Below are positions 18,319 through 30,508 of a stretch of 64,000 nucleotides of DNA, piece after piece; position 1 is the stretch's first letter; the number at the start of each line of letters is the position of its first letter. The position numbers and the translations under genes were made by a program. Below the pieces are notes generated by a model. The model had not been told where the DNA came from. It made no database searches and saw only the letters and a program-made list of their open reading frames with translations. This stretch comes from Pseudoxanthomonas spadix (GTDB lineage: Bacteria; Pseudomonadota; Gammaproteobacteria; Xanthomonadales; Xanthomonadaceae), in assembly GCF_003703395.1 (NCBI RefSeq), contig NZ_RDQN01000001.1, positions 372,001 to 436,000 of the forward strand, read 5' to 3'.

Positions 18319-19326
18319 CTATCTGCCGCCGATCACCAGCTTGACCGGATCCTTGGCCGGCAACTTCACCCGCACCGGCGCCGATTCCAGGTCGCCCTCA
18401 CCGCGCTGGGCGTTGCCGCTGGCCGACAGGCGCGCGATCAGTTCGACCTCCTTCAACGCGGAGAGCTTCATGGTCGGCATCGGGCTGTCGGTGTCGCCGA
18501 GGGTGATGCGCAGCGGCAGGTCCTGCAGGGTGTGCTTCTGTACGGCCACCGGCATCGGCGGGCCGCCGGCCTGGCGGGCGATGACAAACACGGTGGCGTC
18601 GCCGGACAGGTGCACGCGTGTGGCCAGGTCCGGGTCCAGCGATACCTCGACGTTCACGCCGGCACTGGCCGGTGCGGCGGCGGGCGCGTCGGCTTGCAGC
18701 GGCGGCTGTCCGGCTTCGGTGCGGGCGGCATTGATCTGCGCGCGCAGGCTGTTGGCGGTACTGGCATCGACCTGCGTCAGCAGCGGCTCCCAGGTCGCGG
18801 CGGCCTGCGCGGGCTGGCCGCGCTGGCGCTGGGCCACCCCCAGGAACCAGCGCGCGCGCTGATGGCTGGGCTGCAGCGCAAGTGCGCGTTCGAGCATGGT
18901 CACGGCTTCCTGGTCCAGGCGCCGCTGCGGATCGGCCAGACTGCGCGACTGCGCGGCTTCGACCAGTGCGTCGGGGTCATCGGGCAGCAACCGGGCGGCG
19001 CGGGCGAAGGCATCGCGCGCTTGCTCGGGCTTGCCTTGCGCTGCCAGCGCGCGGCCCAGCAACTGCCAGCCTTCGGCCGCCTGCGGGTTGCGCTGCAGTT
19101 CGTCCTGCAGGCGGGCGATGGCGGCATCCATCGTGGCCGGCGCCTGGGTGGCGTGCGGCTGCAGTGCCTGCGGCGTCCCCACCAGCCGGTACAGCGCAAG
19201 GCTGCACACCCCCAGCGCGACCAGCAGCCCGCCAGCGGCGCGCGGCGCGCGGCGCCACAATGGCCACAGCGCGCCGCCCAGCACCAGCAGGCCGAGCAAT
19301 ACCGCCGCCACGACGAAACTGGCCAT
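18319..19326 (-). CDS. ccmI: Cytochrome c maturation protein CcmI (CycH)
   Basis: About 335 residues, with two N-terminal membrane helices (4-24 and 32-50), a TPR region (AEGWQLLGRALAAQGKPEQARDAFARAARLLPDD) and a C-terminal beta-rich CycH domain. CcmI delivers apocytochrome c to the CcmFH haem ligase. The start was put at ATG 19326; an ATG two codons upstream (19332) is equally possible and would overlap ccmH. It is the last gene of the ccm operon. Confidence 0.85.
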   Translation of the reverse strand: MASFVVAAVLLGLLVLGGALWPLWRRAPRAAGGLLVALGVCSLALYRLVGTPQALQPHATQAPATMDAAIARLQDELQRNPQAAEGWQLLGRALAAQGKPEQARDAFARAARLLPDDPDALVEAAQSRSLADPQRRLDQEAVTMLERALALQPSHQRARWFLGVAQRQRGQPAQAAATWEPLLTQVDASTANSLRAQINAARTEAGQPPLQADAPAAAPASAGVNVEVSLDPDLATRVHLSGDATVFVIARQAGGPPMPVAVQKHTLQDLPLRITLGDTDSPMPTMKLSALKEVELIARLSASGNAQRGEGDLESAPVRVKLPAKDPVKLVIGGR

Positions 19327-19766
19327 CACCATTCCTGTCCGTCATCGGCGCCCGGCAGCGCGCGTGCGCTGCGCCGGCGCACCACCCGCCACACCACCAG
19401 CGCGCCGCCTGCCAGCAGCAGGAGCGGGCCGAACCACAGCAGCCAGGTGTTGCGTTGGACCTGCGGACGGTAGAGCACGAACTCGCCGTAGCGCTCCACC
19501 AGGTAGCTCTTGATCTGCGCGTCGCTGCGGCCCGACTGCATCAGCTGCAGGACCTCGCGGCGCAGGTCTTGAGCGATCTGCGCGTTGGAGTCGGCCAGCG
19601 ACTGGTTCTGGCACATCACGCAGCGCAGTTCGTGGGTGAGCGCATTGAACCGGGCTTCCTCGGCGGCATCCCGGAAGTTCAGCGGCGTGGGGTCGCTGAC
19701 CTGGGCCAGGACGTGGCCGGCGATGAGCAGGGTAAAGATGCACAACAGGCCGCGCAGCCAGGCCAC
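19326..19766 (-). CDS. ccmH: Cytochrome c maturation protein CcmH
   Basis: A 146-residue membrane-anchored thiol oxidoreductase with a signal-like N-terminus (LLCIFTLLIAGHVLA), the LRCVMCQNQSLADS active site and a C-terminal helix (LLWFGPLLLLAGGALVVWRVV). It keeps the apocytochrome CxxCH thiols reduced for haem ligation. The GTG at 19766 was chosen because it places the signal peptide at the N-terminus. The frame stays open far upstream, but that part is antisense to the true frame of ccmG. Confidence 0.87.
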   Translation of the reverse strand: MAWLRGLLCIFTLLIAGHVLAQVSDPTPLNFRDAAEEARFNALTHELRCVMCQNQSLADSNAQIAQDLRREVLQLMQSGRSDAQIKSYLVERYGEFVLYRPQVQRNTWLLWFGPLLLLAGGALVVWRVVRRRSARALPGADDGQEW

Positions 19767-19825: not shown

Positions 19826-20401
19826 TCACCGCGCGCCCCCGGCCTTGGCCAGCGCCGGCAGCAGTTCGGCTTCGACCACGGCCTGATCCAGCGGGCCGAC
19901 ATGCTTCCAGCGCACGATGCCGGCTGCGTCGATCAGGAAGGTCTCCGGCGCCCCGTAGATGCCCCAGTCCAGCGAGGCCCTGCCTTCCACATCGCTGACG
20001 ATGGTGTCGTAGGGATCGCCGAACTGGTCCAGCCAGCGCAGCGCATCGGCCGGCTCGTCCTTGAGGTCGTAGCCGATCACGCGCACCTTGCCGGTCCTGG
20101 CCAAGGCGCTGACGACGGGGTGTTCGACCTGGCATTCCGGGCACCAGCTGCCCCACACGTTGAGCAGGTATGGCCTGCCGCGCAGGGTGGCAAAATCGAG
20201 CGTCCTGTCGGGCTGGTGCAGCAACGGCAGCACCGTGGCCGGCGCCGGCCTGCCGATCAGCGTCGAGGGCAGGGCCTGGCGGTCGGGACGGTCCGAGCGC
20301 TGGACCGACACCAGCAGCAGCGCGAACACCGCCAGCAGGCATAGCATCCCGATCACCATTGCGGTACGCGAGATGCCGCGTCGTTGCGATGCGGCGCTCA
20401 T
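19826..20401 (-). CDS. ccmG: Thiol:disulfide oxidoreductase CcmG (DsbE)
   Basis: A 191-residue periplasmic thioredoxin-like protein. An N-terminal anchor (TAMVIGMLCLLAVFALLLV) is followed by GRPYLLNVWGSWCPECQVEHP with the WCPEC active site and DLKDEPADALRWL. It reduces CcmH or apocytochrome cysteines. Its ATG overlaps the ccmF stop (ATGA, 20398-20401). Confidence 0.93.
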   Translation of the reverse strand: MSAASQRRGISRTAMVIGMLCLLAVFALLLVSVQRSDRPDRQALPSTLIGRPAPATVLPLLHQPDRTLDFATLRGRPYLLNVWGSWCPECQVEHPVVSALARTGKVRVIGYDLKDEPADALRWLDQFGDPYDTIVSDVEGRASLDWGIYGAPETFLIDAAGIVRWKHVGPLDQAVVEAELLPALAKAGGAR

Positions 20402-22323
20402 GCCGGCTGCGGCTCCCTGCTGCGGCGGCGGAAGCGGCGGTCGGTGGCGGTGACCAGGCCGCCGAGCGCCATCAGCACCGCGCCGGCCCAGATCCAGCGC
20501 ACCATCGGCTTGACCTGGATGCGCACCGCCCAGGCACCGTCGCCCAGCGATTCGCCCAGCGCCACGTACACATCGCCCAGCACGCCCGCACGCACCGCCG
20601 ATTCGGTCATCACCTGGCCGCCGCCGGCATAGGCGCGCTTTTCCGGATGCAGGGTCTGCAGCGGCTCGCCACCACGGCTGAGCTGCACGGTGGCGCGGTC
20701 GGCGATGTAGTTGGGGCCCTGGGTTTGGGCCACGCCGTCGAAGCTGAAGCCGTAATCGGCCACCTCGACGTGCTGTCCGGGCTTGAGCGCCACCTCGCGC
20801 TGCACGTTGAGCGCCTCGACCATCAGCGCGCCGATCAGGAACACCGCCAGGCCGAAGTGCGCCAGGCTCATGCCCAGCATCTCGGCGGTCATCCGGCCCT
20901 GCGCGCGCAGCCGGCTCCAGACAAAGCGCACGGTGCCGCCGGCCACCCACAGCGCAGCGACAATCGCCGCGGCAGCCTTCCACTTGCCCTGCGGCGCCAG
21001 GAAGAACGCCGCCGCGCCGCCAGCCAGCGCCAGCGCTGCCCATGGCAGCAGCATTGCCATCACCCGCGAGGCTTGTTCGCGCTGCCATTTGAACAGCGGG
21101 CCGAACGGCAGCAGCAGCACCAGCGGCGTCATCAGCAGGGTGAACAGCAGGCTGAAATAGGGCGGGCCGACCGAGATCTTGCCCAGCTCCAGCGCATCGG
21201 CCAGCAGCGGATACAGCGTGCCCAGCGCGACCATTGCGCAGGCCGCGCCCAGCAGCACGTTGTTGGCCAGCAGCAGGGTCTCGCGCGAGCCGGCGGCGAA
21301 CGGCGCACCGTCATCGAACTGCGGTGCACGCAGCGCGTAGAGCAGCAGCGAACCGCCGACCACCAGCCCCAGGAAGACCAGCACGAACAGGCCGCGCGTT
21401 GGATCGGCGGCGAACGCATGCACGCTGGTCAGCACGCCCGAGCGCACCAGGAAGGTGCCCAGCAGCGACAGCGAGAACGTGGCGATGGCCAGCAGCAGGG
21501 TCCAGCCGCGGAAACTGCCGCGCTTCTCGGTCACCGCCTGCGAGTGGATCAGCGCCGCACCGGCCAGCCACGGCATGAAGCTGGCGTTTTCCACCGGGTC
21601 CCAGAACCACCAGCCGCCCCAGCCCAGTTCCGAATAGGCCCACCAGCTGCCCAGCGCAATGCCGCCGGTCAAGAACGCCCAGGCCACGTTGGTCCATGGC
21701 CGGGTCCAGCGCAGCCAGCGCGCGTCCACTTCGCCCTCCAGCAGCGCGGCAATGGCGAAGGCGAACGGCACCGCGAAGCCCACGTAGCCCAGGTACAGCA
21801 GCGGCGGGTGGATGATCATCCCCGGGTCCTGCAGCAGCGGGTTGAGGTCGCGGCCTTCGGCAACGGCCGGCAGCAGCCGCGCGAACGGATTGGAGGTGAA
21901 GATCAGGAACGACAGAAAGCCCACGCTGATGATGCCCATGACCCCCAGCACCCGCGCGACCACCCGCTCCGGCAGCGCCCGCGAGAACTCGGCCACCGCC
22001 GCGGTCCACAGCGCCAGCACCAGCGCCCACAGCAGCAGCGAGCCTTCGTGCGAACCCCACACCGCGGTGTAGCGGTACACGATGGGCAGCAGGGAGTTGG
22101 AGTTCTCGGCCACGTACTTCACCGAGAAATCCTGGCCGACGAAGGCCGCGGTCAGCACCACGAAGGCCAGCAGCACGCTGGCCAGCTGCGCATAGGCGGC
22201 CGGCCGGGCCACCGCCATCCATGCCTGCGTGCCGCGCTGCGCGCCGGCCAGCGGCAGCACGGCCTGTACGCATGACACCAGCAGCGCCAGGATCAGCGCG
22301 ACCTGGCCAAGCTCAGGAAGCAT
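20398..22323 (-). CDS. ccmF: Haem lyase subunit CcmF
   Basis: A 641-residue polytopic membrane protein with the haem-handling WWD motif WGGWWFWDPVENASFMPWL and the conserved HEGSLLLWALVL segment near the N-terminus. It ligates haem to apocytochrome c with CcmH and CcmI. I chose ATG 22323 (MLPELGQVAL), the family start. The frame remains open to ATG 22467 through the GGGACCC repeat arrays and would add 48 Pro/Gly-rich residues, which looks like fortuitous readthrough. Confidence 0.93.
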   Translation of the reverse strand: MLPELGQVALILALLVSCVQAVLPLAGAQRGTQAWMAVARPAAYAQLASVLLAFVVLTAAFVGQDFSVKYVAENSNSLLPIVYRYTAVWGSHEGSLLLWALVLALWTAAVAEFSRALPERVVARVLGVMGIISVGFLSFLIFTSNPFARLLPAVAEGRDLNPLLQDPGMIIHPPLLYLGYVGFAVPFAFAIAALLEGEVDARWLRWTRPWTNVAWAFLTGGIALGSWWAYSELGWGGWWFWDPVENASFMPWLAGAALIHSQAVTEKRGSFRGWTLLLAIATFSLSLLGTFLVRSGVLTSVHAFAADPTRGLFVLVFLGLVVGGSLLLYALRAPQFDDGAPFAAGSRETLLLANNVLLGAACAMVALGTLYPLLADALELGKISVGPPYFSLLFTLLMTPLVLLLPFGPLFKWQREQASRVMAMLLPWAALALAGGAAAFFLAPQGKWKAAAAIVAALWVAGGTVRFVWSRLRAQGRMTAEMLGMSLAHFGLAVFLIGALMVEALNVQREVALKPGQHVEVADYGFSFDGVAQTQGPNYIADRATVQLSRGGEPLQTLHPEKRAYAGGGQVMTESAVRAGVLGDVYVALGESLGDGAWAVRIQVKPMVRWIWAGAVLMALGGLVTATDRRFRRRSREPQPA

Positions 22324-22332
22324 GGGGAAGCC

Positions 22333-22456
22333 GGGACCCGGGACCCGGGGCCCGGGACCCGGAAGAGCAAGAACAGGAGCGCGAGCCCGGCCACCGCCGC
22401 CCTTGATTTTTTCGGGTCCCGGGTCCCGGGTCCCGGGTCCCGGCTTCATGGGTCCC
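22333..22456. repeat. Inverted arrays of the GGGACCC heptamer between ccmE and ccmF
   Basis: Four tandem heptamers, GGGACCC with one GGGGCCC variant, occupy 22333-22360. Four GGGTCCC heptamers, the reverse complement, occupy 22414-22441, and a fifth lies at 22450-22456. The arrays face each other across about 53 bases and could form a 28-bp stem in the ccm transcript. Each heptamer is itself nearly palindromic. The array is in the only sizeable gap of an otherwise overlapping gene series. Confidence 0.85.
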
Positions 22457-22470
22457 GGCTCCATCAAGCC

Positions 22471-22920
22471 TCACTGCGCCGTCTCCACTCGATGCTTCAC
22501 ATGCGCCTTGCCCATCTTGTCGGCCACTTCCTTGGGCATGTAGCGCTCGTCGTGCTTGGCCAGCACCTCGGTGGCGACGAACCGGCCACCGCGCATCGTG
22601 CCGGTGGCGATCACCGCCTGGTCCTCGCGGAACAGGTCCGGCAGGATTCCGGTGTAGACCACTGGCAGCTGCGCATCGCCGTCGGTCACCCGGAAGTGCG
22701 CATCCAGCGAGCCTTCGCCGCGCTGGAACGAGCCGCGCTCGACCATGCCGCCCAGGCGGAACCGCGCCTGGCCGCCGGCCTGGCCCTTGAGTACCTCCGA
22801 AGGCGTGTACAGGTAGGCCACGTTGCGCTGCAGGGCCATGGCCACCAGCGCGGTCGCAAGGCCCGCGGCGGCCACGACCACCAGCACCAGCAGCAGCCGG
22901 CGGCGACGGACCGGGTTCAT
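22471..22920 (-). CDS. ccmE: Haem chaperone CcmE
   Basis: A 149-residue protein with an N-terminal anchor ([22 protein letters not shown]) and an OB-fold domain. His123 in [10 protein letters not shown] is the covalent haem-binding residue, with Tyr127 as expected. It carries haem from CcmC to CcmF. ATG 22920 overlaps the ccmD stop by 4 bp, which fixes the start. Confidence 0.94.
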
Positions 22921-23090
22921 CGCACCAGCTCGGTATCGGCGGCCGGCGCCGGGGCGGGACGCCGGCGGCTGCCGCGCAGGCGCGCATCGCGCAGCAGCCG
23001 GCGCACCTGCAGGCGCGGGACCAAGAAGTCCCACAGCAGCACCAGGGCGAAGACCGCGTAGGCGGCGATGACGTAGGGCAGGTAGCTCAT
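22917..23090 (-). CDS. ccmD: Haem exporter subunit CcmD
   Basis: A 57-residue protein with one membrane helix ([21 protein letters not shown]) and a basic tail, as usual for CcmD, which helps release holo-CcmE from the CcmABC complex. Its ATG overlaps the ccmC stop and its stop overlaps the ccmE start. The encoding frame is open far upstream on the same strand, but only this part is ccmD. Confidence 0.88.
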
Positions 23091-23980: not shown

Positions 23981-24430
23981 TCAGGGTTTCACGGTCAGGG
24001 TGCCCTTCATCAGCGCCGAGTGGCCGGGAAAGCTGCAGAAGAATGAGTACGGGCCTTCGCTCAGCTTGGCCACCGGAATGCTGATCGAGGTGCTCTCACC
24101 ACCGCCGATCACCTTGCTGTGCGCGATCACCCGGTTGTCGCCCGGTTTGACGTAGTCGGCAGCCAGCCCGGCCTTGACGCCGTCGGCGTTGACCCCCGCC
24201 ATGTCGCTGCTCTTGGCCACCACCACGTTGTGGCCCATTACATTCTTTGGCAGCTTGCCGACATGCTTGAGATTGATGGTGAAGGTGGTGCAGCTCTTGG
24301 GCACCTCGATGGTGGCCATGCTGAATTTCATGGCGTCGTTGCCCTCAAGATCGGCCGAGCAGGTGGCCGCTCCGGCGACAAGCGGGAACGAGGCGAACAG
24401 GACGGCGGCGACAAGCGTTTTGCACAACAT
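23981..24430 (-). CDS. Azurin (type I blue copper protein)
   Basis: A 149-residue periplasmic cupredoxin with a signal peptide cleaved near residue 21. The copper ligands are His67 (VMGHN), Cys132 (FFCSFPGH), His137 and Met141, and Cys24-Cys47 form the usual disulfide. Azurin is a one-electron periplasmic shuttle. It follows the cytochrome c4 gene by 78 bp on the same strand and is probably part of the same unit, so it may carry electrons to or from the porin-cytochrome conduit. The residue after GHN is Val where Pseudomonas azurin has Trp. Confidence 0.95.
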
Positions 24431-24508
24431 GCGGGATAACTCCTTGTGGGTCAGCCTGGCAGGAAACGAAGAAAGCCGGACGCGGCCTGCCGAGGGGCAA
24501 TGGTCCGA

Positions 24509-25291
24509 TCAGGGTGGCAGGCTCGATAGCCATGCCGCAAGCGATTCGATGGTTTGCGCATCCAACCGCTGGGCGACGCCATGCATGATCATATCGTTGG
24601 TCGAGTCGAGCAGGGTGCCTTGTTGGAAGGCATTCAGGCGCGACTGCAGGTAGGTGGACTGCTGCCCACGCAGCGCCGGGTACAGGGCGTAGGGCGACAG
24701 GTGTGCGCCATCGGCCTGTGCGGCCAGCGGGTATCCCAGGGCCTCGGGTCCGTGGCAGCCCTGACAGGGCGGAATGCCCTTGTCCGGATCGCCGTTCAGG
24801 AACAGTCGGCGGCCGGCTTCGGCCAGGGTCGGGTCGACGGTGGCCTGTGGGTCCTGTGCAGCCGGCTGTCGCTGCTGGCTGGCGTAGTACGCCGCCAGGT
24901 CGCGCATGTCCTGTTCGCTCAGGCCCGCGGCCAGCGGGGTCATGGGCGATTCGGGCTGGGCGCCGCGTTTGTACTCGACCAGTTCCCAGTACAGGTACTC
25001 GGCGCGCTGCCCGGCCAGGTTCGGAAAGATCGCTGTGGTCGCGGTCCCGGTGACCCCATGGCAGGCCGCGCACACCTCCGACTTGGCCTTGCCCGCTGCG
25101 GCGTCGCCGTGGATCGGCTCGGGTCGGCGCAGGTCCAGGTAGCGCACCGCCACCGGAGCGGCGGCTGGCTCGGCCTGCGCCTGCGCGGCGGTGGCCGGTA
25201 CGCCCTGCGCCATCGCCATGGCCGCCACGCAGGCGCAGGCCGCCGCCGTCGCCACGGCCGCGATCCACCGCCGCGGACGCGAGGGCTTCAT
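24509..25291 (-). CDS. Diheme cytochrome c4
   Basis: A 260-residue secreted protein. After the signal peptide and an Ala/Pro linker come two cytochrome c domains, with haem sites CAACH near 73-77 and CQGCH near 172-176 and axial Met candidates in SPMTPLAAGL and NDMIMHGVAQRL. Cytochrome c4 is a periplasmic electron carrier to oxidases. ATG 25291 overlaps the stop of the mtrB-like gene by 4 bp, so the two are translationally coupled. The same frame stays open upstream only as antisense of that gene. Confidence 0.92.
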   Translation of the reverse strand: MKPSRPRRWIAAVATAAACACVAAMAMAQGVPATAAQAQAEPAAAPVAVRYLDLRRPEPIHGDAAAGKAKSEVCAACHGVTGTATTAIFPNLAGQRAEYLYWELVEYKRGAQPESPMTPLAAGLSEQDMRDLAAYYASQQRQPAAQDPQATVDPTLAEAGRRLFLNGDPDKGIPPCQGCHGPEALGYPLAAQADGAHLSPYALYPALRGQQSTYLQSRLNAFQQGTLLDSTNDMIMHGVAQRLDAQTIESLAAWLSSLPP

Positions 25292-27816
25292 AGCTGAATC
25301 TCCAGCAGCACGCCGACCATGTTGACGCTGTAGTTCTCCGGGCCGCCGTCGGTGTAGACGCGATGGTCCATGACCTGTCCATCCTCGAACCCAAGGTAGT
25401 GCCAGTCGAAGACGTTGCCGCGCTGGTAGGAATCGAACAGGCGCAGGCTGAAGTCCCGGGCGATCGGGATGGTCAGGCCGAGGGTCAGCGCATGGGTGCG
25501 ATAGACCATGGCCGGGAACCGGCCGGTCAGCAGCGGGGCGGCCGTCGGATTGGCCAGGGCGGTCGGCGAGGCATAGCGGTAGCTGGTCAACCCGCGCGAA
25601 TAGGTCCAGTTCCAGTCGGCGTTGAGCGTGGCCCGGCCGATGCGCCGGCTCAGGTTGGCCCCGGCGTAGTGGTTGCGCTGGCGATCGTGCATCCACCAGC
25701 GGTTGGCCTCCGGATAGGTCGCGCCACCCAGGCTGGGATCCGGCAGCAGGACGGCGTCGTTGACGTTGGCGAAATCCAGGGTCGAGCGATCGTAGCCGTA
25801 CCAGGCGCTGGCCATGGTGGCCGGGTTCGGCTGCCATTCCCATTGCAGGCTGCCGCCGATGGTGTCGTAGCCCTGGCGTCCGAGGACGGCGTCGTAGTCG
25901 TTCCAGTCGCCGCGCACCGAGGCATAGAAGGTCATGTCGCGCGGCGCGGTGAAGGTCGCCATCAGGTCGATCTTGTCCTGGGTCCGTCCGCCGACGTCGT
26001 ACTTGCGCAGCGCATCGACGGTATGGGCAAAGTCGCCGGTGACCGGCGGCACGTAACCGGGCAAGGATCTGGACATGGTGAATTCGTAGGGGTCGTAATC
26101 GTATTCGCTGCCCGTGCGGCGCAGGTGGGTGTAGTTGGCGCGCAAGCTCAGCCAGTCCAGTGCGCGGTTGCTCCAGTTGAGCTTCAGCGAATGATCGCGC
26201 GTGGTGGCGACCTCGCGGTGAGTGCGTTCGGTGCGGTCGAAGGTATAGGTGGCGCCGAGCGTGTTCCTTTCGTCGACGCGCCAGTCGCCGCCGAAGGAAA
26301 TCTCGTTGAGTTCGCGGTCCAGCGGCAGGTTGCGGATCCTGGTCAGCGAAGCGGGACTGGACAGGCGGTCCCAGATGCCGGCCTCGCCGGGAACCACGCT
26401 GCCCTGCGAACCATTTTCCGACGGATAGCCCCACTGGCCGGTCAGGGGGTTGTAGGCCCGGTAGGTGCCGTCGTAGTCCTGGCGGTCATACTTGACGTTC
26501 GCCCGCCAGGTGAGCGCATCGCTGGGTGCCAGGACCACGCGCGCATCCACCATCTGGGTATTGATGCTCAGGTCCGAGCGCTGCCGCGACAGCGACTGCG
26601 TCGTGTTCCAGTTCGCGCAGTCGAACAGCGTGCCCGGGATGCCGGCGATGCCGAACTGGCCCTGGCAGGCCATGGACGGAACCAGCTGGTCGTTCTGGCG
26701 CATGGTTCCCAGTGAGGCGGTCAGCGAGGCGGTGCCGTTCCAGGCGACCTTGCGGCTGAAGCTGGTGCGCAGGTGGTGGTAGTCGTTGTCCGGCTCGTAC
26801 GAGAACGAGCCATCGGTCAGCACCGGTGAGGTCAGGCCCGGCACCACCGGGGTCAGCCCGAACGGCACCTGGTAGTCGAAGCTGCGCTTGGCGTTGCGGA
26901 AGAACGAACCGGAGTAGGCGAACTCCATCCGCCACAGGTTACCGACGAAGCGCGCGCCGCCGTTGAAATTGACCGTGCTGTCGTCGATGGGTCGCGGGGT
27001 CTCGTAGGCGCCGCCGTTGTCGGCGAAGGCGAAGTTGAAGAAGAACGGACCGCCGAACGGCCGCGCGCCCTCTCGGGATTCGTGGCTGGCATTGGCGAAT
27101 ACCGCCCAGCGCGTGTTGATGAGGTAGTTGATGCCCACGCCCTGTTTTTCGCGCACCACCGTCAGCAGCCGTTCCGGCTGCGCGGCCGAGACCGCGGCGA
27201 CCTGCGCCGGGGTGCTGGCGCCGGGGGTCAGGCCGTCCTTGAGGGTCAGGTGGTTGCTGCCCACCCCATCCCAGATCGAGCGCGCGTTGCCGCTGGTGAT
27301 GTTCGGCTGGCTGCGTGCAAAGGCCTGCACGCGGTACTTGCCGGCGCGGCCGAAAACGGCGCGCACGTACTGGCTGTCATCGGCCAGGCGGCTGGCGCGC
27401 AGGTCGAAGTAGCTGCCGTCGGAGGGCTTCTCGAAGCGCAGGTCCGCACCCAGGTAGGCGCCATCGTCCCAGTTCGAGAATCGCCGCCAGATCATGTTGT
27501 TTGCGTCGCCGGAGACGCCCAGGTAACCCAGCGTGAGCGTGCCGCGATACTGCCAGGGGCCCTGGCCCTTGAATTCCGGCCAGGCGATCGGGCAGGCATA
27601 GAGGAAGCCGGTCGGCGTACGCTTGCGCTCGCCGTTCAGCCAGCTGGCGCCATCGGGATCGCAGCCGTAGACGGCGGGCCCGCTGCTGGGATCCAGGGCG
27701 TTGCCGAACTGGAGGTCGGTGCCCAGCCCGGTGTCCTGGGCCAACGCGCTGGACGCGAGCAACGCCGAGGTCAAGGTGGCCAGTTGCAGGGCGGTATTGC
27801 GTTGGCGCTTGCGCAT
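25288..27816 (-). CDS. MtrB/PioB-family decaheme-associated outer-membrane barrel
   Basis: An 842-residue protein with a signal peptide (LATLTSALLASSALAQ) and a large beta-barrel with many alternating aromatic strands, for example WRRFSNWDDGAYLGADLRFE, FYASVRGDWNDYDAVL and VYRTHALTLGLTIPIA. MtrB, PioB and MtoB sheath a decaheme cytochrome across the outer membrane to move electrons out of or into the cell. Two Cys (in AVYGCDPDG and LYACPIAW) lie in the N-terminal region. It starts 13 bp after the decaheme cytochrome gene. The barrel assignment is strong from its partner and length; the physiological direction is not determined. Confidence 0.85.
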   Translation of the reverse strand: MRKRQRNTALQLATLTSALLASSALAQDTGLGTDLQFGNALDPSSGPAVYGCDPDGASWLNGERKRTPTGFLYACPIAWPEFKGQGPWQYRGTLTLGYLGVSGDANNMIWRRFSNWDDGAYLGADLRFEKPSDGSYFDLRASRLADDSQYVRAVFGRAGKYRVQAFARSQPNITSGNARSIWDGVGSNHLTLKDGLTPGASTPAQVAAVSAAQPERLLTVVREKQGVGINYLINTRWAVFANASHESREGARPFGGPFFFNFAFADNGGAYETPRPIDDSTVNFNGGARFVGNLWRMEFAYSGSFFRNAKRSFDYQVPFGLTPVVPGLTSPVLTDGSFSYEPDNDYHHLRTSFSRKVAWNGTASLTASLGTMRQNDQLVPSMACQGQFGIAGIPGTLFDCANWNTTQSLSRQRSDLSINTQMVDARVVLAPSDALTWRANVKYDRQDYDGTYRAYNPLTGQWGYPSENGSQGSVVPGEAGIWDRLSSPASLTRIRNLPLDRELNEISFGGDWRVDERNTLGATYTFDRTERTHREVATTRDHSLKLNWSNRALDWLSLRANYTHLRRTGSEYDYDPYEFTMSRSLPGYVPPVTGDFAHTVDALRKYDVGGRTQDKIDLMATFTAPRDMTFYASVRGDWNDYDAVLGRQGYDTIGGSLQWEWQPNPATMASAWYGYDRSTLDFANVNDAVLLPDPSLGGATYPEANRWWMHDRQRNHYAGANLSRRIGRATLNADWNWTYSRGLTSYRYASPTALANPTAAPLLTGRFPAMVYRTHALTLGLTIPIARDFSLRLFDSYQRGNVFDWHYLGFEDGQVMDHRVYTDGGPENYSVNMVGVLLEIQL

Positions 27817-27829
27817 CGCCGCACTCCCC

Positions 27830-28894
27830 TTACTTGTGGAACCGTGGACCTGCAGGATTGTTGGAGCCGTGGACCTGCGCGTGGCAGGTCACGCACCCGC
27901 GCCCCATCAGGCGCTCGTCCGGCGCCATGCCGGTGGCGAGCTGCTGTTCGCTGAACATGTCGTTCGGATGGCGGGTATGCGAATGGCACTGCTGGCACAG
28001 CATCGGCACCGGCGCCACCAGCAGCGCGTGTTGATTGGAGCCATGCGGGGTGTGGCAGTTGAGGCAGTTCTCGCGCACCGGCGCGTGCTCGAACAGGAAC
28101 GGCCCGCGCTTTTCGGCATGGCACTGGTAGCAGGTTTCGTTGACCGTATCGGTCTTCAGCAGCGAGGCGCTGATGGTGCCGTGCGGGTTGTGGCAATCCA
28201 CGCAGGCCATCTGGCCTTCCGGCAACGGCATGTGCGAGCGCCGGTTGAATTGCTGGCGGATGTCCTTGTGGCAGGTGGCGCAGGTCTCGTTGATCGACTG
28301 TTTTGCTTCCAGTCCTTCGGCGGACAACTGCGCCATCGGGTTGTGGCAGTCGCTGCAGGACAGCTGGTTGCGCTGGTGGATCGAGCCCAGCCATTGGTCA
28401 CGCGGCCCGCCTGCGTGGCAGCCCAGGCAGCTTTCGGTCTGGGTCTTGATCGGCGTGCCGCGGTCCTTGGTGAAGGCGATGATCGCGCCCTTCAGCGACG
28501 GGTTCTGCGCATGCTGCGAACCGGGCCCGTGGCAGGCCTCGCAAGTGGCGGTATTTGGATTGGCGGCCAGGGCCGCGTTCATGCCCAGGGCATGGGTGGT
28601 GTGGGTGAAGTTCTGGTTTTCCTTGGCGTGGCAGGCGGTGCAGGTGGCCTGGCCCACGGGCGTGGCGTCGGGGGCCTGCGGATTGACCGCCACCTTGGCC
28701 TGGTCGAACCCGGTCACCTGCGAGAATCCATGAACGGCCGCTGGGTTTTCGGCGCCGAAGTGGGTCGAGGGAAGCTTGACCCTGGCCTGGTCCATGCCGG
28801 AGGCGGAGGACGGTGCCACCCACGCCGCGATCGCCAGCGCGCCAGCGGCTGCCACGCACATCATCACCAGCATGAATCGGCGCATCCGTTCCAT
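27830..28894 (-). CDS. Decaheme c-type cytochrome, MtrA/PioA/DmsE family
   Basis: A 354-residue secreted protein with exactly ten CxxCH motifs in order: CTACH, CEACH, CLGCH, CSDCH, CATCH, CVDCH, CYQCH, CLNCH, CQQCH and CVTCH. It has extra His residues for bis-His ligation and an N-terminal signal (MLVMMCVAAAGALAIAAWVA). This is the MtrA/PioA/MtoA architecture, a decaheme wire that threads the MtrB-type barrel. No extracellular MtrC-like cytochrome is encoded nearby, so the pair resembles PioAB/MtoAB more than MtrCAB. Oxidation of extracellular Fe(II) or another donor is one possible role and remains inference. Confidence 0.92.
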   Translation of the reverse strand: MERMRRFMLVMMCVAAAGALAIAAWVAPSSASGMDQARVKLPSTHFGAENPAAVHGFSQVTGFDQAKVAVNPQAPDATPVGQATCTACHAKENQNFTHTTHALGMNAALAANPNTATCEACHGPGSQHAQNPSLKGAIIAFTKDRGTPIKTQTESCLGCHAGGPRDQWLGSIHQRNQLSCSDCHNPMAQLSAEGLEAKQSINETCATCHKDIRQQFNRRSHMPLPEGQMACVDCHNPHGTISASLLKTDTVNETCYQCHAEKRGPFLFEHAPVRENCLNCHTPHGSNQHALLVAPVPMLCQQCHSHTRHPNDMFSEQQLATGMAPDERLMGRGCVTCHAQVHGSNNPAGPRFHK

Positions 28895-29045
28895 CCCCGC
28901 GCACCTGGCGATGCCGCAACGAGCGGCGGCTGGGCTACGCCGTAAGTGATGTTGGGATGAGGGTCACGCGCGAGCGCCTACAACGTCAAGCTGCAACGCA
29001 GCATGAACGACAGGTTCCGGGCCGGACCAGCAGCGGCCACCGGTC
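28895..29045. promoter_or_regulatory. Probable promoter region of the porin-cytochrome operon
   Basis: This 151-bp gap between the ccmB stop and the decaheme cytochrome start is the largest spacing in this part of the minus-strand series and is the natural place for a promoter serving the four electron-transfer genes. I see no unmistakable -35/-10 pair or terminator in it, so this is a positional call only. Confidence 0.3.
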
Positions 29046-29732
29046 TCAGTTCAATGCGATCCGGATCGCCGCAGCCGCCGCCAGCGGCGCCAGCACCAGC
29101 GCTGCCACCAGGCCGGCGGCCAGCAACAGCAGCGCGCCCACCGGATCGAGCCCCTGCGCGCTGGCCGCCACGCTGCCGGCGCCGAACACCAGGACCGGCA
29201 CGTACAGCGGAAGGGCCAGCAGTGACAACAGAATGCCGGAGCGAGGCATGCCCACGGTCAGTGCGGCGACCACCGCGCCGAGCAGGCTCAGCAGCGGCGT
29301 GCCCAGCAGCAGCGAGGCCATCAGCACCGGCAGTTGCGCATGCGGCAGCTGCAGCAGTTCGCCCAGCAGCGGGGTCGCCACCACCAGCGGCAGGGCAGTG
29401 GTCAGCCAGTGGCTGAGCACGCGCACGGCCACCAGCCAGGCCAGCGGCACCGGTGCCAGGATCCATTGTTCGAGCGAGCCGTCCTCGGCATCGCCGCGGA
29501 ACAGTGTGTCCAGTGCCAGCAGCCCGGCCAGCAGCACCGCCAGCCACAGCACGCCGGCGGCGACCTTTGACAGCAGCTGCGGCGCGCCGCCCAGCGACAG
29601 GGCAAACAGCACCACCACCAGCAGCGCGAACAGGGCCGGCTGGAAGGCATCGCCACGGCGGCGCCACATCAGGCGCAGGTCGCGCTTCAACAGCGCCGCG
29701 GCCACGCCGGGAAGCGTCACGATGCCGTCCAT
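29046..29732 (-). CDS. ccmB: Haem exporter permease CcmB
   Basis: A 228-residue inner-membrane protein with about six helices and the family N-terminus LLKRDLRLMWRRRGDAFQPALFALLVVVLFAL. It is the permease of the CcmAB ABC transporter that drives release of haem-loaded CcmE. It follows ccmA by 4 bp. The electron-transfer genes begin 151 bp downstream, where ccmC would be expected. Confidence 0.92.
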   Translation of the reverse strand: MDGIVTLPGVAAALLKRDLRLMWRRRGDAFQPALFALLVVVLFALSLGGAPQLLSKVAAGVLWLAVLLAGLLALDTLFRGDAEDGSLEQWILAPVPLAWLVAVRVLSHWLTTALPLVVATPLLGELLQLPHAQLPVLMASLLLGTPLLSLLGAVVAALTVGMPRSGILLSLLALPLYVPVLVFGAGSVAASAQGLDPVGALLLLAAGLVAALVLAPLAAAAAIRIALN

Positions 29733-29736
29733 GACG

Positions 29737-30462
29737 CTACGTTCCCGCCTCTGGATGGCCCGGCCCCGCCGCCCTTGGCGGGGCGTTCACCGTCGCAGAG
29801 GCCGACAGGGTATCTGCCAGGCACGACGGGGCACCCAACTCCAGCATCCGCGTGCGCACCGGTGGCGCCGCATAGGCGCCGTGGGTGGTGACCAATGCCG
29901 CGCCGCCACTGCGCAGGTGCGCGGCGACCAGGCGATTGACCAGGGTGATGCCTTCCAGGTCCAGGTTGGCGTAGGGCTCGTCCAGCAGCCACAGCGGTGC
30001 CGGCGCCAGCCACATGCGCGCCAGCGACAGGCGTTTTTTCTGGCCGGCCGAGAGCTGGCGGGCCGGGGTGTCCTCGTAGCCGGCCAGGCCGGTCAGGGCC
30101 ATGGCCTGGATCGGCTGCTGGTTCGGGCGGCGGCCATGCAGGCCGCACAGGAATTCCAGGTTCTCCAGCGCGCCCAGGTCGGCCTTCAGTGCCGGCAGAT
30201 GGCCCAGGTAGGCCATCGCCCGGGCGCGTGCGGCGCTGGTGGCGGGCACGCCATCGAGCACGATATGGCCCTGGTCGGCCCGCAGCAGGCCGGCCAGGAC
30301 CCGCAGCAGGGTGGTCTTGCCGGCGCCATTGCCACCCTGGACCAGCAGTGCCTCGCCGGCGTCGACCTGGAAATCGAGCGGGCCGAACACCGGTTCCTCG
30401 TTGCGGCTGAACGCCAGTGCCTGGACGGACAGCAGGGGCGGGCGCGAGGTGTCGGAACTCAT
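29737..30462 (-). CDS. ccmA: Haem exporter ATPase CcmA
   Basis: A 241-residue ABC ATPase with Walker [10 protein letters not shown], signature [14 protein letters not shown], Walker [13 protein letters not shown] and the switch His in LVTTHG. It powers the CcmABCD step of cytochrome c maturation. The ATG at 30462 (MSSDTSRPP) was preferred to 30471. The roughly 40-residue tail after the switch His is longer than usual and Ala/Pro-rich. Confidence 0.92.
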
Positions 30463-30508
30463 CGCGCGCATTGTAGGACGCGATCATCCAGCGCGGCTTG
30501 GCGCTGGC

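Follow-up and report, generated by a model that had tools for sequence, protein, structure and literature searches.

A decahaem cytochrome and an MtrB/PioB-family barrel encoded inside the ccm operon of Pseudoxanthomonas spadix, and their proposed role in electron uptake

A 64,000-nucleotide stretch of the Pseudoxanthomonas spadix genome (contig NZ_RDQN01000001.1, positions 372,001 to 436,000; hereafter the window, in whose own numbering all positions are given) carries genes for a decahaem cytochrome, an outer-membrane barrel, a diheme cytochrome c4 and an azurin between ccmB and ccmC, i.e. inside the System I haem-ligation operon. The arrangement is real, conserved and unusual, and the machine is of a known kind. 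On balance, we favour the view that the genes specify an outer-membrane conduit of the same kind as MtrAB, PioAB and MtoAB but lacking a surface cytochrome, that electrons likely flow inwards through it, and that it is sited in the ccm operon for joint haem supply. The sequences themselves show which parts are present and in what order, how the barrel folds, that the haem ligands are conserved, that the ccm link recurs and that the carrier varies.

Gene order and predicted products

All genes of the locus lie on the minus strand, in the order ccmA, ccmB, decahaem cytochrome, barrel, c4, azurin, ccmC, a ccmD candidate, ccmE, ccmF, ccmG and ccmH, and the neighbours from ccmB to ccmC are separated by 151, 13, −4, 78 and about 135 bp. 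A sequence-only reading of the window had placed the conduit genes between ccmB and ccmC on the same strand, with ten CxxCH motifs, a 13-bp gap between the decahaem and barrel genes and a 4-bp barrel/c4 overlap; open frames and profile matches confirm each of these points. In the 3.37-Mb genome the MtrB_PioB barrel and ccmC each occur once, and a single decahaem exceeds the TIGR03508 cut-off.

The decahaem cytochrome (27830..28894, 354 amino acids) belongs to the MtrA/DmsE family and scores 262.6 bits against TIGR03508 (cut-off 192.2). Among solved structures it comes closest to chain A of 6r2q, from the Mtr complex (E = 3.5e-59; the molecule name in that record is wrong and the entry title was used), with which all ten CxxCH motifs align. 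The ten histidines of these motifs and ten further ones are invariant in 35 related decahaem sequences, which fits the requirement of ten bis-His haems. The first haem motif is preceded by 84 residues. An AlphaFold model made without haem was poor (predicted local distance difference test score 52.4) and was not used. Neither DmsA nor DmsB is among the identified genes of the six neighbours on each side, a count that does not extend to a genome-wide search for DmsA.

The adjoining gene encodes an outer-membrane barrel of the MtrB/PioB family (25288..27816, 842 amino acids) with 26 predicted long strands. The earlier assignment to this family was checked with two profiles: PF11854 is matched well over its cut-off (293.1 bits, cut-off 23), and TIGR03509 stays below its own (212.7 bits, cut-off 240.05). 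The barrel superposes on 6r2q at 2.4 Å across 640 residues, with 20% identity in the structural alignment.

The c4 protein (24509..25291, 260 amino acids, PF00034, two CxxCH motifs) aligns along both class-I c domains with solved cytochromes c4 (PDB 6q2u, E = 5.8e-32; 1etp, residues 62-258, E = 1.4e-31). The azurin (23981..24430, 149 amino acids) scores 181.8 bits against TIGR02695 (cut-off 105.1) and matches 88 PDB sequences at E ≤ 1e-20, of which those displayed are nearly all azurins; its alignment to the azurin of the P. aeruginosa type covers the region of the His, Cys, His and Met of the copper site.

Around this insertion the genes ccmA, B, C, E, F, G and H of a System I operon are present in order. 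Upstream lie ccmA, for the haem-exporter ATPase (29737..30471; TIGR01189, 225.5 bits, cut-off 131.6), and ccmB, the left flank of the conduit genes (29046..29732; TIGR01190, 217.2 bits, cut-off 156.2). The right flank is ccmC (23087..~23845; TIGR01191, 235.4 bits, cut-off 186), whose start codon was picked by eye. It is followed by a 57-residue ccmD candidate (22917..23090), recognised by eye only from its open frame, by ccmE (22471..22920; NF009728, 248.9 bits, cut-off 221) and by ccmF (20398..22467; TIGR00353, 730.7 bits, cut-off 569.05; frame as listed, the true start probably lying further in). A ccmG/dsbE-like thioredoxin gene (19826..20404; Redoxin PF08534, matched on the longer frame 19826-21088) and a gene for a ccmH/ccmI protein with tetratricopeptide repeats (18319..19332; PF23892, PF23914) complete the operon.

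The expectation that ccmB and ccmC are usually adjacent was borne out among the matches listed: the two genes are less than 400 bp apart in 57 of the 75 genomes listed for both, 0.9-1.3 kb apart in ten and more than 10 kb apart in six; the window genome stands at 5.4 kb, and one genome has the genes on different contigs. An assembly artefact was rejected, as the identical gene order occurs in six of 28 regions fetched from other genomes. Two of the six call for comment: at locus L040 the contig end truncates ccmB, and at L050 ccmB was seen as an open frame and missed by tblastn.

Carriers and direction of electron flow

Assembly, cotranscription, direction of flow, partner oxidase and substrate are inferred, and the following scheme is to be read in that light. 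The barrel, with its 26 strands, would enclose the decahaem cytochrome, which would conduct electrons through the outer membrane. In the periplasm c4 and azurin would trade electrons with it and could hand them on to a cbb3 or aa3 oxidase. Net flow would most likely be inwards, so that a heterotroph might gain extra electrons from an extracellular donor, or remove such a donor, with Fe(II) and humic or other redox compounds as candidates. Placing the conduit genes inside the ccm operon would let the twelve haems and the haem-ligation machinery be made together. The interpretation offered in the sequence-only reading is thereby supported in part.

The genome offers partners for such a path. It encodes bc1 and three haem-copper oxidases of PF00115, assigned by eye to aa3, bo3 and cbb3 clusters. 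Across the window genome there are no matches to TIGR03507 (MtrC/OmcA), so that the absence of an MtrC-like surface cytochrome, noted in the sequence-only reading, holds genome-wide. RuBisCO families gave no match in the same genome. Carriers of the azurin, HiPIP (high-potential iron-sulfur protein) and cupredoxin type have high potentials and serve oxidases. Because of these carriers, because the oxidases and bc1 are present, and because NapC/NirT, MtrC/OmcA and RuBisCO are unmatched and NirK has no match over its cut-off, inward flow to oxygen appears to be a better reading than outward flow.

The same conduit could also run outwards, with electrons passing from the quinol pool through bc1 or another dehydrogenase to c4/azurin, the decahaem cytochrome and an external acceptor under oxygen limitation. 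MtrAB homologues do so in Shewanella, and bc1 is at hand. Moreover, the available excerpts on other Mtr systems give PdsA, a diheme shuttle with a link to mtrCAB, a part in outward flow. The genome lacks, however, an MtrC-like surface cytochrome and any CymA/NapC-family quinol dehydrogenase (no match to NapC/NirT/CymA, PF03264, at E ≤ 0.001; only the NapC family and bc1 were sought as quinol dehydrogenases). In addition, the carriers found in the slot beside these conduits, azurin, HiPIP and another cupredoxin, are by their redox potentials poor donors to Fe(III) oxides. We therefore regard outward flow as rather unlikely. Some points nevertheless tell against the inward reading: besides the PdsA precedent and the limited scope of the quinol dehydrogenase search, the c4 protein itself weakly matches the PdsA profile (45.6 bits, cut-off 330), and the direction of the window conduit is unreadable from sequence, as the available part of Baker 2022 (PMC8805035) states for MtrCAB in general.

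A further possibility is that the azurin serves a copper nitrite reductase, with the whole cluster belonging to a denitrification pathway. Nitrite reductase is known to accept electrons from azurin, and TIGR02376 (NirK) is matched over its cut-off in ten of the 16 genomes of the family sample that hold the conduit genes, compared with 128 of all 297. Yet the window genome (best match 2.4e-7) and five other such genomes have no TIGR02376 match over the cut-off, cd1-type NirS not having been sought, and all three PF00115 matches read as oxidases, which leaves no nitric oxide reductase of that family. Lacking a NirK over the cut-off in the window genome, the azurin-NirK link was rejected, and a role in denitrification is highly improbable.

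What accompanies the conduit varies. We compared 83 loci, i.e. the window, 80 named loci kept from a scan of 173 relatives, L042 and L050; some of them are near-copies. The carrier slot was defined as lying outside the decahaem-barrel-c4 block (the module) and within 2.5 kb of it. It holds azurin in 20 loci (17 downstream, 3 upstream), HiPIP in ten and another cupredoxin in four; four of the HiPIP loci (L106, L121, L122, L123) have an additional cupredoxin between barrel and c4. Next to the window conduit there is no HiPIP, and c4 and azurin are found instead. Among known systems, PioC belongs to the HiPIPs, and its place is held by cymA in the mto cluster, according to the available part of PMC10654088. 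Since the slot varies in this way, and PioC and cymA vary in the known clusters, the small carrier is the variable part of these conduit systems. It also counts against the proposed scheme that none of the three carriers lies in the slot of 49 of the 83 loci.

In L050 (7500-8190) a second azurin lies upstream of the module; its start bears a lipoprotein-like signal and a long linker rich in Pro and Ala. The two azurins on either side of that module are only 56% identical and so do not form a fresh direct repeat, and a recent insertion by azurin-azurin recombination was rejected.

Position and history of the module

The module is rare. In the family sample of 297 genomes TIGR03508 is matched in 45, over the cut-off in 27, and the module is held by 16. 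The 28 fetched regions, drawn from the 26 remaining genomes over the cut-off and from two under it, comprise six with the module between ccmB and ccmC, nine with the module elsewhere and 13 with only more distant decahaems, most of them with a barrel. Four of 18 genomes of the genus have the conduit, the window's own counted; in ten of the other 14 the ccmB/ccmC gap was inspected, being empty in nine and occupied by azurin in one.

Among the 83 loci, 15 modules lie in the ccmB/ccmC gap (13 by script; L098 and L050, where ccmB is cut or missed, by hand) and four in the ccmE/ccmF gap (L104, L107, L113, L115). The latter come from metagenome assemblies, and the decahaem tree groups them with Dokdonella, Rudaea and Tahibacter. 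Seven loci are flanked by ccm genes on a single side, and in Luteimonas mephitis (L081) the module stands just downstream of ccmH. Two separate sites within ccm and a third just downstream of ccmH speak for a beneficial link. Furthermore, the available part of PMC11868835 reports that excess CcmB is harmful and complexation with CcmACD protective; a 5-kb split between ccmB and ccmC would therefore be costly unless both halves are co-expressed.

Several findings run counter to a functional tie with ccm. No ccm gene occurs within the available flank in 57 of the 83 loci (14 of them short-flanked), and the link is therefore dispensable for the module. A scan of the region came up without a sigma-70 promoter, and c4 and azurin are separated by a terminator-like stem; terminators in the region number 5, in shuffles 3.6 ± 2.1, i.e. 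there is no excess. A TetR-family gene (PF00440, PF14246), found upstream within 2.5 kb in 12 of the 15 ccmB/ccmC modules, is missing in the window and in P. winnipegensis (L087), and no remnant was seen in their gaps, which in the window is the 151-bp interval 28895..29045; slices from L070 and L182 contributed nothing to this comparison.

The ccm position could be a neutral accident, a single landing in ccmB/ccmC that is now being lost, with co-location but no function. The many modules away from ccm and the small number of genomes with the module in the family sample would agree with this. So would a starred clade of seven rows in the ccmC+ccmF tree (four named Stenotrophomonas), in which four ccmB/ccmC gaps hold the conduit, two azurin only and one TetR only, a pattern that resembles decay. 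On the other hand, a single landing does not account for the ccmE/ccmF site and the place downstream of ccmH, and the chance of landing at random no more than 10 kb from the ccm operon is by rough estimate about 1% per event. In the decahaem tree the ccmB/ccmC position needs four changes, of which starred branches force only one, but constraining the ccmB/ccmC decahaems to one clade lowers the likelihood (p-AU, approximately unbiased test, 0.048). The value is borderline; more than one move of the module seems likely. We hold the neutral accident to be doubtful, if a serious contender. The window decahaem itself is loosely placed (support of 93 in one tree, an open fork in the other).

The 59 rows of the ccmC+ccmF tree give 14 ccmB/ccmC gaps with the conduit, 14 with azurin only, one with TetR only and 30 with nothing recognised; gaps scored as empty in L180, L181 and L183 are 483-1231 bp long without a recognised gene. 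The conduit label requires seven changes on this tree, five of them forced by starred branches. Azurin-only and TetR-only gaps look like remains of conduit loss, the tree giving no direction of change. The TetR gene alone in the gap of L070 (genome G029) is 58% identical to that of the module, and this gap is likely a scar of conduit loss.

The azurin-only gaps can also be taken to mean that azurin belongs to the ccm operon and that the conduit merely adjoins it. Luteimonas aquatica and L. panaciterrae have the conduit at another site and without azurin (L082, L083), and their azurin is in L061 and L062. Against this, azurin accompanies the module away from ccm in five of the 83 loci (L042, L088, L090, L096, L101), in two relative places, and HiPIP or another cupredoxin fills the slot in other branches. 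An azurin tied to ccm and unrelated to the conduit is hence not very likely.

Other features of these loci deserve mention. Relocation of the TetR gene in the window genome was rejected: its best relative, 44% identical, lies about 206 kb away among other neighbours and was taken as a paralogue. In Rhodanobacteraceae a LysR-family gene often replaces TetR, and at several loci between L120 and L160 genes for an extracytoplasmic function sigma factor, an anti-sigma factor and a subtilisin-like protein (named by eye) recur near the modules. In L089, labelled Burkholderiaceae, the TetR gene is 8.7 kb from the module within a ccmB-ccmC layout of Lysobacterales; therefore, the bin may be mislabelled. 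Tandem duplications of decahaem-barrel-c4 occur in two metagenome assemblies (L118, 10001-18805; L151, 7721-17011). L037 (2436-12918), with two decahaem-barrel pairs around a 668-residue protein bearing nine CxxCH motifs and a formate-dehydrogenase-gamma-like part, is a conduit of another type within this family. The decahaem of Pseudoxanthomonas sangjuensis (L159) groups with the Rhodanobacter-type branch, apart from other Pseudoxanthomonas, and transfer between families is possible. Plasmid carriage was rejected, the sole case being one distant Photobacterium record.

Relation to known conduits and significance

With the MtrAB of Shewanella (6r2q) the window system shares the decahaem cytochrome, its aligned haem motifs and the superposable 26-stranded barrel, which is longer in the window (842 residues compared with the 695-residue 6r2q chain). 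Unlike Shewanella with its MtrCAB, the window genome has neither MtrC nor NapC/CymA and offers aerobic oxidases as partners. PioA has a long N-terminal part, in contrast to the 84 residues before the first haem motif of the window protein. PioABC of Rhodopseudomonas palustris resembles the window system in its decahaem, barrel, small soluble periplasmic carrier and lack of a surface cytochrome, and ten relatives of the window module carry a HiPIP, PioC's kind of protein; the window differs in having azurin and c4 and no RuBisCO. MtoAB-MtoD-CymA of Sideroxydans lithotrophicus, as described in the available excerpts, likewise combines decahaem, barrel and a small periplasmic cytochrome without MtrC, whereas the window lacks CymA and has c4 and azurin where MtoD would be.

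Linkage of conduit and System I haem-ligation genes is already published: in the available part of Baker 2022 (PMC8805035), six mtrCAB clusters adjoin a complete ccmA-I operon. Those clusters contain mtrC and lie next to an intact ccm, whereas the window kind has no mtrC and lies inside the operon, at ccmB/ccmC or ccmE/ccmF. Searches of an open-access library turned up no description of an mtrC-free conduit within a ccm operon; as far as these sources go, this placement is the new part.

Work on electron conduits has centred on metal reducers and iron oxidisers. The branch described here is divergent and occurs in aerobic heterotrophs of an ordinary sort (Pseudoxanthomonas, Luteimonas, Stenotrophomonas, Dyella and Rhodanobacter kinds), several of them named culturable strains. 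Tentatively, and with considerable reservation, we propose that the conduits of Xanthomonadaceae and Rhodanobacteraceae are aerobic uptake modules with an exchangeable carrier, which may have entered ccm several times as a twelve-haem wire would pay only with raised haem ligation; ccm would then be a landing site for haem-demanding respiratory modules, and azurin-only or TetR-only gaps would be fossils of the loss of such modules. With the conduit inserted in the haem-ligation operon, haem supply and demand would share a transcript in a natural setting. Direction of flow and choice of partner can be tested directly, as azurin, HiPIP and another cupredoxin replace one another beside one conduit.
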